The translations under genes were made by a program, and so were the position numbers. Positions 2,129 to 58,744 of a stretch of DNA of 64,000 nucleotides are shown one piece after another. Within the stretch, counting starts at the first letter, position 1; each line of letters starts with the position of its first letter. This stretch comes from Candidatus Gastranaerophilales bacterium (GTDB lineage Bacteria; Cyanobacteriota; Vampirovibrionia; Gastranaerophilales; Gastranaerophilaceae). The stretch is from NCBI GenBank assembly GCA_947624325.1, contig CANQJT010000003.1, forward strand, positions 62,001 to 126,000, written 5' to 3'. The notes below the pieces were generated by a model. It saw nothing but the letters and a program-made list of their open reading frames with translations. It did not search any database and had not been told where the DNA came from.

Positions 2129-2358
2129 TGTATATTATAGAAAAGTTAGTAAAAATATATTTAAAGTTAACAAACAAAGATAATACTCCCATATTGCCTG
2201 ATGGGATTGACAAACCTGAACTTGAAGATGTTATTACATGTCAGCATAATTTCCTTCCCATAGATTCTACGGGTGAAGTACTGGCATGCAGTAAATGCGG
2301 TTATGTTGTCAGGAAAAAACGTCTAAAGAAGAAAATGTCCGGGAAAATTTCGCAATAA
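2128..2358 (+). CDS. small zinc-ribbon-like protein
   Basis: A 76-residue protein that starts inside the stop codon of the UbiA-family gene (TAATG), which argues that it is real and co-translated. Cys38, His40, Cys54 and Cys57 form a C-x-H ... C-x2-C pattern typical of a small zinc ribbon, followed by a lysine/arginine-rich tail. No enzyme motif is seen. It could bind nucleic acid or assist the membrane enzyme; I do not recognise a family. The last 15 bases of the gene lie inside the dispersed repeat that begins at about 2343, so the C-terminal residues may have been supplied by the repeat. Confidence 0.6.
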   Translation: MYIIEKLVKIYLKLTNKDNTPILPDGIDKPELEDVITCQHNFLPIDSTGEVLACSKCGYVVRKKRLKKKMSGKISQ

Positions 2359-2450
2359 GGAACATGAGCGAAATTTTTGAGTGGTGTTTATAAAAGGTGA
2401 GCAACTTTACGGTTGCGATGAGCAAGCGGAAGGTTGCGACACTAGATTAA
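2343..2450 (+). repeat. dispersed structured repeat, copy 1
   Basis: About 108 bp that recur at 28585-28695; the last 58 bases differ at only five positions. It starts with an inverted repeat (AAATTTCGC ... GCGAAATTT, loop about 14 nt). Then comes GAGTGG, an AAAAGG box, and two small hairpins with GCAAC/GTTGC and GCAA/TTGC arms, ending in ACTAGATTA. The first stem has C-G-C/G-C-G where the other copies have C-A-C/G-T-G, a paired change. A mini-ORF of nine codons (ATG at 2364) sits just after an AAGG. The element touches the end of the small zinc-ribbon gene on one side and stops four bases before the stop codon of the opposite-strand gene on the other. Confidence 0.75.
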
Positions 2451-2453
2451 ATA

Positions 2454-27946: not shown

Positions 27947-28408
27947 TTAAATATCTTCGCCTTCTTCTTCTTTTTTTTCTCGGGATTTTTGAAAATACTT
28001 CTGAACGGCGACTTCAGATAATTCTTTTATTTCTTTTTGTTTTTCTTCTTCTTTATATGTTTCTAATGCTCTTTCTTTGTGTTTTTCAAGTACTTTTACT
28101 TCTTTTTCTCTTTCAACAAGTTTTTGTTTTTCTACCTCCAGTGCTTGCAAAGCTTCTTGTTTCTGTTTTTCAAGTTCTTCGCCTTTATCATACAGGTGTT
28201 TTAAGTATTTGTCGTATAAATCCATTTGCCTGTAGTCTGTAGTGTTTCTCATTGTGTATATTACACCGGATATTTCTTCATTATTCGCATCAATTAATCC
28301 TTGAATTCTGTCTACCTCATTTTTGGCTTTTATTACTTCTTGAAGCTGTTCTTCTTTTCTTCTTATTCTGAAGTCCAGCATTTTTTGTAATCTGTATCTG
28401 AACGGCAT
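27947..28408 (-). CDS. fliJ: flagellar export protein FliJ
   Basis: A 153-residue, almost wholly helical coiled-coil protein, heavily charged with Glu and Lys, starting M-P-F-R-Y-R-L-Q-K-M-L-D-F-R, the conserved FliJ N-terminus (F-x-L-x-x-L-L-x-x-R). FliJ is the stalk-like subunit of the flagellar type III export ATPase that helps FliI engage the export gate. It is the first gene of a compact minus-strand cluster with the FliK-like and hook/rod genes, 11 bases before the next start. FliI itself is not in the window. Confidence 0.83.
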   Translation of the reverse strand: MPFRYRLQKMLDFRIRRKEEQLQEVIKAKNEVDRIQGLIDANNEEISGVIYTMRNTTDYRQMDLYDKYLKHLYDKGEELEKQKQEALQALEVEKQKLVEREKEVKVLEKHKERALETYKEEEKQKEIKELSEVAVQKYFQKSREKKEEEGEDI

Positions 28409-28521
28409 AATTTTATTTATCTATACGTATACATTTAAGATTATGCATTTTTTTTGATTTTTACTGTACCTCTATTTATATGAAATTTTTTAATGTTTAT
28501 TTTTAAAAAGTCAAAAATAAT

Positions 28522-28550
28522 TTGGACTATATGGGATATTGGTATATAAT
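28522..28550 (+). promoter_or_regulatory. sigma-70-type promoter upstream of the repeat and pxpA
   Basis: TTGGAC at 28522-28527, a 17-base spacer and a perfect TATAAT at 28545-28550. Transcription would start near 28557, about 30 bases before the dispersed repeat, so the repeat would be the 5' leader of the pxpA-yvcK transcript. Confidence 0.65.
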
Positions 28551-28584
28551 AAAGTTGGTGATTTATAAATAAAACAGTCCGAGT

Positions 28585-28695
28585 AAATTTTCACAATAAG
28601 TCAAATGTGTGAGTGAAAATTTGCGAGTGGCATATTTAAAAGGTAAGCAACTTTACGGTTGCGTTGAGCAATCGGAATGTTGCGGCACTAGATTA
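28585..28695 (+). repeat. dispersed structured repeat, copy 2
   Basis: This copy differs from copy 1 (2343) at five of the last 58 bases. It begins with an ATTTTCAC ... GTGAAAAT hairpin (loop about 18 nt), then GCGAGTGG, AAAAGG, and the GCAAC/GTTGC and GCAA/TTGC hairpins. It lies between a good promoter and the pxpA start codon. Read in frame from the GTG at 28609 it continues without a stop into pxpA. Confidence 0.75.
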
Positions 28696-28719
28696 TACAG
28701 TAATGGTAAAGGGGATTTT

Positions 28720-29490
28720 ATGCCGGTAAAACACATCGATTTTAATATAGATGCAGCACAAGGTTTCGGGGTATATAAAAATAATATTGAGTCTGAACTG
28801 TTGGATTATGTCAGCTCCGTTAATATTTCATGCGGTTTCCATGCAGGTGATCCGCTCTTAATTAAAGAATATTTATTGAAATGTAAAGAAAAAAATCTTA
28901 CAATCGGTGCGCATATTGGTTTTAATGATATATCAGGTCTCGGATACAGGCAGATGGATTTAACATCGGATGAAATAGAAGCAATAGTTCTTTATCAAGT
29001 CGGTGCTTTGATGTCTTTTGCTAAATCATATAATTTAGTTATAGACCATGTAAGACCGCATGGTGCTATGTATAAGCTGGCAAGCGAAAATTTTGAGTTT
29101 TCACTGTCCATCGCAAAAGCAATTAAAAAAATTGATAAGTGGCTTGCTTATACCTGTCTTGATAATGAAATTCTTAATAGAGTTGAAACCGAAGCCGGAA
29201 TTGTCGTTAATAGAGAGGTGTTCGTCGATAAATATTATACTCAAGAATTTAAACCTGATTGGGATAATAAAAATACCATAAATGACGAAGATGCTTTAAA
29301 CAGAATAAGAACTATTATGTTTTCATCTCAAATAAAACTGGGTAACGGTTTGTTTATGCCCGTAAATTGTAATACAATTCACTTTGATACAAAAAATCAA
29401 AATATCAGAGAATTATTGCAAAAGGCAAATGAAATAGTAACACCTACCCCGTTCAATTACAATAAAGCAGAACTTTCGGGATGGGTATAA
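28720..29490 (+). CDS. pxpA: 5-oxoprolinase subunit A (LamB/YcsF family)
   Basis: Family members form the A subunit of ATP-dependent 5-oxoprolinase, which opens 5-oxoproline to glutamate. The motifs are clear: D-F-N-I-D-A-A-Q-G-F-G, N-I-S-C-G-F-H-A-G-D-P, G-A-H-I-G-F-N-D and the H-V-R-P-H-G-A-M-Y block. I take the ATG at 28720, behind AAGGGG at the right spacing. A frame from GTG at 28609 would add 37 residues that are translated dispersed repeat, not the family's N-terminus. The length is 256 residues, the family norm. Genes for subunits B and C are not nearby, so activity as 5-oxoprolinase is unproven. The next gene (yvcK) is 12 bases downstream. Confidence 0.88.
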   Translation: MPVKHIDFNIDAAQGFGVYKNNIESELLDYVSSVNISCGFHAGDPLLIKEYLLKCKEKNLTIGAHIGFNDISGLGYRQMDLTSDEIEAIVLYQVGALMSFAKSYNLVIDHVRPHGAMYKLASENFEFSLSIAKAIKKIDKWLAYTCLDNEILNRVETEAGIVVNREVFVDKYYTQEFKPDWDNKNTINDEDALNRIRTIMFSSQIKLGNGLFMPVNCNTIHFDTKNQNIRELLQKANEIVTPTPFNYNKAELSGWV

Positions 29491-58492: not shown

Positions 58493-58633
58493 AAAAACAA
58501 TCCCCTTTTAATAAGCATGTACTACTGCTACAAATATTATATATTGTTTTAAAATATTTGTCTAAGAAAATAAACTATCTTTACATATCTTTTCATTTTG
58601 TATAAGAATAAATTACATGGTACTATAATTTAA

Positions 58634-58705
58634 GCTGGTGTTGAAGCCTTTTCAATATACCATTCGCAAATTTTCACATACACCTTCGGTTAATTCGTGA
58701 AAAAT
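58634..58705 (-). repeat. dispersed structured repeat, copy 3 (partial, inverted)
   Basis: On the minus strand, TTTTTCAC, 19 bases, GTGAAAA form the first hairpin; then TTTGCGAATGG, ATATTGAAAAGG. Over the conserved 28 bases it matches copy 2 at 25. After AAAAGG the sequence differs, and the GCAAC/GTTGC hairpins are absent. It sits in the 250-base gap between the HTH gene and manC. Confidence 0.62.
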
Positions 58706-58744
58706 AATCAGGAAAAACAGTAAAATATAAAAAAGGAAATAATA

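Follow-up and report, generated by a model that had tools for sequence, protein, structure and literature searches.

The repeat lying between the promoter of a pxpA-like gene and its start codon is very probably a dispersed, structured element which inserted recently into the leader between an old promoter and the gene, the leader as it now stands being an accident of insertion. The window, that is, the whole stretch of 64,000 nucleotides analyzed here, corresponds to C3:62001–126000 of draft genome G000 (1,980,432 bases in 20 contigs, 98.9% complete). A promoter-like site, a repeat and an open frame running into pxpA had been remarked upon in an earlier sequence-only reading of this DNA, and all three can be read in the sequence where that reading placed them. 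The repeat is most likely a non-autonomous mobile element, which would have been moved in trans. The pxpA transcript would start near position 28557 and now carry the repeat in a leader of approximately 163 bases, and any effect on pxpA, for instance on mRNA stability, would be a by-product.

The promoter had been described as TTGGAC (28522–28527) and TATAAT (28545–28550, + strand) separated by a 17-base spacer, and these hexamers are present upstream of the ATG at 28720. The TATAAT is indeed conserved, but the conserved upstream hexamer lies one base to the right (TGGACT, 28523–28528, + strand), with a spacer of 16 bases. The consensus scan alone returns two promoter sites on both strands against a shuffle mean of 2.5, which is no better than chance; the promoter is credible through its conservation over 36 comparable leaders. 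In this comparison, in which each leader is represented by its best TATAAT within 140 bases and from which the diverged ortholog L064 was left out, a perfect TATAAT occurs no more than 140 bases upstream of the start codon in 36/36 leaders and T(G/A)GACT, 16 bases from it, in 31/36. Between TATAAT and the start codon lie 37–50 bases in 33 of these leaders, and 169 in the window. The conservation extends beyond the two hexamers (28516–28554 and the same place in relatives: AACTGGACTA..AT.....ATTGATATATAATA), a pattern suggestive of recognition by a regulator or a special sigma factor.

Comparison of leaders shows the repeat to be a recent insertion into a pre-existing promoter–pxpA unit, seen in G000 only, since the two closest relatives have empty sites and none of the orthologous leaders compared matches the repeat. 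In these relatives (L031 and L042) the pxpA-like protein is 93% identical and the same leader occurs without the repeat: that of L031 reads AAATAAAACAGTTATGGTAAAGGGG, and that of L042, which equals the L167 leader of genome G034, is the same with one additional A. At this place the window reads AAATAAAAC, then 123 extra bases, then AGTAATGGTAAAGGGG. Judged by the empty site, the insertion spans 28576–28698 (+ strand), consisting of a core (28576–28695) and a terminal TAC, and lies between AGTTATGG and the pentamer AAAAC (28571–28575, + strand), which is directly 5′ of the insertion and single in the empty leaders. With it the start codon is 169 bases from TATAAT instead of 46–47, while the promoter, the start codon and the ribosome-binding sequence AAAGGGG (28708–28714, + strand; 31/36 comparable orthologs have AGGGG no more than 16 bases from the start) remain intact. 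The sequence-only reading had the repeat end 25 bases before the pxpA start; its position near the start stands, but the core ends 24 bases before the ATG.

A comparison of pxpA leaders across relatives, which that reading had proposed, was run, and the repeat was found in none of the 36 comparable orthologous leaders. R1, a covariance model made from 11 compact copies of G000, scores the pxpA copy (copy 2) at 134.2 and has no match at E≤1 in the leaders of 37 fetched pxpA loci; its single match among these loci is L066:747–839, some 2.2 kb upstream of pxpA. The suggestion that the repeat had simply landed there is supported by the two empty sites. The searched genomes comprise one assembly per species, a scope which bears on whether the insertion is fixed or polymorphic.

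Other copies tell much the same story. Seven G000 copies were tried; for the six whose flanks allow comparison, G034, G010 or both have an empty site, although for copy 3 this holds only approximately. Copy 1 of the window (2336–2452, + strand, core 2336–2449, R1 127.0 bits) and the degenerate copy 3 (58631–58714, − strand, R1 33.2 bits) are absent at the syntenic place in G034, the latter only roughly, its flank having diverged. Copies L006, L017 and L009 are likewise absent from G034, and L006 and L009 from G010 too. The flank of copy L002 has short or partial matches in six of seven relatives and none in G034, the best covering 159 of 616 bases (G023). In the reciprocal case, one G034 copy is absent from G000. 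Copy 1 (2320–2370) also sits, by eye, at the extreme end of an apparent reading frame, to which the repeat supplies a new stop (CAATAA).

The sequence-only reading had also considered that the leader could control translation. Such a dedicated cis-regulatory leader, whether riboswitch or translational switch, would accord with the location of the repeat within the predicted transcript, in sense orientation and near the ribosome site, and with a structure that is well conserved in the family. The same structure, however, is also found next to other genes, facing either way. Of 103 model matches 102 were considered (one dropped by length; mostly the best-scoring copies of 12 genomes, with ORFs taken from a simple script rather than a gene finder), and copies lying within 100 bases upstream of a predicted start number 33 sense and 29 antisense, and neighboring genes run in the same direction in 96 cases and in the opposite direction in 91. 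No Rfam family is matched at the gathering level in the window, and copies L002 and L275 yield chance-level hits only, at E≤10. On the ortholog comparison, the orientation and Rfam a dedicated leader RNA was rejected. A transcription attenuator was rejected as well, no terminator-like site having been found on the + strand of 28400–28760; the sole one is on the − strand.

Predicted folding is also of little help to a translational role. Opening of the ribosome site would cost 5.4–6.3 kcal/mol with the repeat, little more than the 4.2–5.6 kcal/mol of the empty leaders L031 and L042 or the 5.0–5.6 kcal/mol of the window leader with the repeat left out, and the Shine-Dalgarno letters are on the whole predicted to be about equally open with and without it. 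The one predicted difference in favor of control is at the start codon, the U and G of which are unpaired at 0.04–0.09 with the repeat versus 0.06–0.46 in the empty or repeat-free leaders. Since these letters are more paired, an incidental effect on expression is conceivable, but in these models any reduction of pxpA expression by this route would be at most modest. Control of translation by the leader is therefore not supported (none of the orthologous leaders, no orientation preference, similar opening cost); a purpose-built translational switch for pxpA is improbable, and we would give the dedicated leader in general only the slightest chance of being correct.

It is another matter whether the mobile insertion now noticeably changes expression of pxpA, for example as a 5′ hairpin which protects or destabilizes the mRNA. 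PMC3049150 and PMC10969869 describe effects of small repeats on co-transcribed genes; protection or destabilization of mRNA by such hairpins is reported for BIME, ERIC and Correia insertions. Because such effects are reported for other small repeats, a side effect on pxpA mRNA stability is possible by analogy. The inserted RNA is predicted to fold better than its shuffles (z −3.8), and the increased pairing of the start codon points the same way. Against this, only a single genome shows the insertion, which gives no hint that selection has favored it, and a noticeable change in expression strikes us as rather unlikely. The empty sites make plain that a fresh insertion can pass for a convincing structured leader, which counsels caution with riboswitch calls made from one genome.

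The insertion has a further consequence for annotation. The pxpA-like gene (28720–29490, + strand, 256 aa) begins with the ATG at 28720, which is found at the same place in 36/36 comparable orthologs. A GTG at 28609 opens a frame (28609–29490) that runs into the gene and would add a spurious 37-codon extension (28609–28719, + strand); it owes this solely to the lack of a stop in that frame of the repeat, and by eye no ribosome-binding sequence precedes the GTG. The in-frame open stretch upstream of the ATG comprises 40 codons in the window and 0–29 in the 36 relatives. These comparisons support the view that annotating the 37 additional N-terminal residues would be a mistake, much as the sequence-only reading had warned, the extra frame stemming from the inserted repeat. 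The start of pxpA is hereby corrected; automatic annotation could add 37 false residues.

As to function, the protein matches LamB/YcsF (PF03746, 178.5 bits), the family of PxpA. PxpA works with PxpB and PxpC. CT_A_B (PF02626), to which the partner PxpC belongs, is without a match in G000, and 5-oxoprolinase activity should therefore not be assumed from the name; the function of the gene may not be 5-oxoproline cleavage. The protein has the sequence NIDAAQG at the place of the PxpA motif N.DLGEG.

The + strand of the repeat folds into two hairpin domains which are maintained by compensatory changes. In the consensus fold domain 1 (28577–28631, + strand) has outer GUCC/GGC pairs and an 11-pair stem, and domain 2 (28642–28689, + strand) has GGU/ACU closing pairs and a single long interrupted stem. 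Three hairpins had been proposed at first; that fold was rejected because GCAAC..GTTGC and GCAA..TTGC make better sense together, each forming half of one long hairpin, which has 98.1% of cells paired and a covariation of 0.737, versus 72.8% and 0.313 for the separate short ones. In an alignment of 11 copies (A2) 98.5% of cells are paired, 10 pairs are changed on both sides, and the covariation score is 0.310 versus 0.150 when shuffled and at most 0.065 when slid. For 91 distinct copies aligned to the model, and hence leaning to the structure, the figures are 97.8% paired, 24 double-changed pairs and a covariation of 0.457; 29 copies from 12 genomes, aligned independently with MAFFT, give 98.3%, 12 double-changed pairs and 0.445. 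Some measures do not stand out from the shuffles: the count of further pair types is matched by 493 (A2) and 430 (A4) of 500 shuffles, and 43 of 500 reach the A4 count of double-changed pairs. Two G-U pairs are kept in 84/91 and 80/91 copies. Since the opposite strand would have C and A at these places, the active form is likely to be the single-stranded + strand, whether RNA or DNA. Its RNA is predicted to be more stable than that of the − strand in the four copies tried.

The repeat occurs far beyond chance. R1 has 25 matches in G000 at E≤0.01 (21 under stricter settings), and at the same threshold finds matches in 34 of the 39 genomes of the genus, five (G002, G004, G021, G029 and G031) having none. 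The counts range from 0 to 89 per genome, and the high ones may be low since at most 93 candidates were scored per genome. The two top scores are shared by ten copies of G007, as young copies would be expected to do. In a sample of 146 genomes of the class, searched with stricter filters, seven genomes including G000 have matches, and all belong to the same family. It is through a lineage of cyanobacteria-related gut bacteria that the repeat family has spread. Repeats of G186, which belongs to another genus, have the same ends and a GC-rich second stem; in a third genus (G142, G076, G152) the 5′ domain is kept while the 3′ hairpin and the end differ. Copies L275, L276, L273, L274 and L286, from another genus, retain the 5′ hairpin nearly letter for letter; their 3′ hairpin is mostly GC-rich, ends CUGCUUU and looks terminator-like.

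Carriage by phages or plasmids was rejected, copy L002 having no match in phages or plasmids and the exact two-end pattern being absent from viral contigs. Among the G000 matches read, no autonomous relative with the same ends around a gene was seen.

Several copies (L004, L005, L010, L013, L015/L019/L026, L023 and L024) contain extra modules, which by eye are at fixed places: in the loop of hairpin 1, between AAAAGGT and GAGC, and in the loop of hairpin 2. Modules such as TTACAAAGCGAA... and another rich in GC recur between copies. L057 has, upstream of its pxpA promoter, a 33-base element on the reverse strand with the same ends (TGTCCGAG ... CACCGGATTA) and almost no interior, which the R1 model missed. 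L274:831–880 (+ strand) is by eye a perfect palindrome (TGTCCGAGAAAGACTCGC...GCGAGTCTTTCTCGGACA) with the 5′ end of the element at both ends. Two copies with the same orientation, one truncated and the other complete (L003/L012, G000:C1:285699–286073), flank what we take to be a tRNA-Ser gene, and a G007 copy (L146) appears by eye to sit in the loop of a terminator-like palindrome, GACTGTATAT...ATATACAGTC.

The ends and target were studied in 89 copies, obtained from 103 model matches of which 100 were distinct with both flanks and 11 of these, being without canonical ends, were dropped; like the 91 copies aligned to the model, they are mostly the top scorers of 12 genomes. The left flank has A at −4 in 78/89 copies and is otherwise only AT-rich; the right end is GATTADAT-like (D = A, G or T), with A at +2 in 79/89 and T at +3 in 81/89. 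By eye the ends, TGTCCGAG and CACTAGATTADAT, share only a 4-base TGTC/GACA match in place of terminal inverted repeats. Six junctions with empty sites fit blunt insertion, two exactly, three with one substitution and L006 one base off; insertions of this family thus mostly fit a blunt mode in which target bases are neither lost nor duplicated. The junction of copy 2 is one substitution off this model, and it could hold an imperfect ACAG duplication.

A plain 5-base target duplication is opposed by the pentamers, left and right differing in five of the six junctions, and no target site duplication of fixed length was found there. Equal pentamers are nonetheless commoner in the 89 copies than in shuffles: the left pentamer equals the right end (TA plus three bases) in 13/89 copies versus 5.6 expected, and 0/200 shuffles reach 13. 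Of the five-base offsets tried, this one gives the strongest, though still weak, excess; among single aligned positions, two are slightly enriched (p 0.017 and 0.031) and the central one is not (42 versus 41.7). The excess may come from a shared target preference or from relatedness of copies, or some copies may hold a short imperfect target duplication.

How the element moves is less sure. We would suggest that it does so as a folded single strand, and that an enzyme may recognize the two hairpins and join the 3′ end of the element (GATTADAT) 3′ of a similar AT-rich pentamer, much as in IS200/IS605-type elements, which insert without target site duplication. One might go further and regard the family as a REP/IS200-IS605-type element moved by a Y1 HUH transposase that is, or formerly was, encoded there. 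The hairpins near both ends on one strand, the loose likeness of the 3′ end to the pentamer flanking the 5′ end and the mostly absent target duplication would all agree with this. Yet Y1 transposase (PF01797) has no match in G000 nor in the copy-rich G007, G024, G058 and G025, and the 11/39 genomes of the genus that do have it are not distinguished by copy number (one-sided rank test, p 0.46). A guide sequence 5′ of the hairpin feet gave, by eye, no convincing pairing with the cleavage site. We regard this origin as possible, though less likely than not.

Spread through RNA, with a reverse transcriptase copying the folded transcript and the copy being integrated, would also suit the conservation of structure on one strand with G-U pairs and the mostly absent target duplication, and there is one reverse transcriptase match in G000. 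RVT_1 occurs in 15/39 genomes, however, is not linked to copy number (one-sided p 0.61) and is missing from the copy-rich G024, G058 and G030, all of which makes this route improbable. Y1 transposase and reverse transcriptase were both rejected as movers, their presence not being linked to copy number, and so was IS110, matched in 1/39 genomes and not in G000. For the non-autonomous element that we favor, the approximate boundaries, the fold and the insertion rule of the family are now defined, and this makes the search for the mobilizing enzyme concrete.

The kind of element is a known one. We could not place the present combination, in which two covarying hairpins go with a lack of evident terminal inverted repeats, a mostly absent target duplication and no mobilizing enzyme found. 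As far as could be found the repeat family is undescribed, no account of it appearing among the literature titles and abstract openings listed. Tentatively, and with the odds against us, we put forward an undescribed mobile family within one Gastranaerophilales family (among the genomes searched): a small, two-hairpin single strand under strict base-pair selection, which an enzyme other than Y1, IS110 or reverse transcriptase inserts without duplicating the target, and which gathers nested insertions at fixed loop positions.

Likeness to the IS200/IS605-type elements is one of anatomy, not membership, given that several copy-rich genomes as well as G000 are without a Y1 match and that copy number is not linked to it. 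PMC6006769 describes for the known IS200/IS605 and REP systems hairpins near the ends on one strand, an intergenic position and many copies, as well as a motif 5′ of the left end which resembles the last letters of the element itself; our repeat is similar in these, though for the motif the likeness is loose. The repeat differs in being approximately 123 bases long with two conserved hairpins, which exceed the 20–25 bases given in that source, and in having a loose, AT-rich target with A at −4 where a tetranucleotide is described there. Canonical REPs are defined, in PMC6006769 as well, by the tetranucleotide GT(A/G)G at the hairpin foot; this foot is absent here, which speaks against a Y1 REP origin, and the conserved 5′ letters are by eye those of the left end given above. 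A CCGA stretch 5′ of the inner stem does fit the CnGA foot that the source names for TnpA class 3 structures, a weak 3-base match that would favor such an origin.

By description, the repeat is also like BOX, RUP and SPRITE of Streptococcus pneumoniae, small structured interspersed repeats, some of them modular, which PMC3049150 presents as parasitic non-autonomous elements that possibly affect co-transcribed genes. That source links RUP and BOX to IS-like terminal inverted repeats, whereas ours, from another phylum, has only TGTC/GACA. According to PMC3049150, it is by terminal inverted repeats and target duplication that classical MITEs are characterized. With such elements (Nezha of cyanobacteria, Correia, ERIC) the repeat shares its short length, non-autonomy, structure and variable copy number, but it shows neither clear terminal inverted repeats nor a clear target duplication. 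Finally, the small mobile repeats of cyanobacteria treated by Elhai et al. in 2008 are reportedly about 20–30 bases long and nest inside one another; by this description, they would differ from our repeat in length and resemble it in their nesting.
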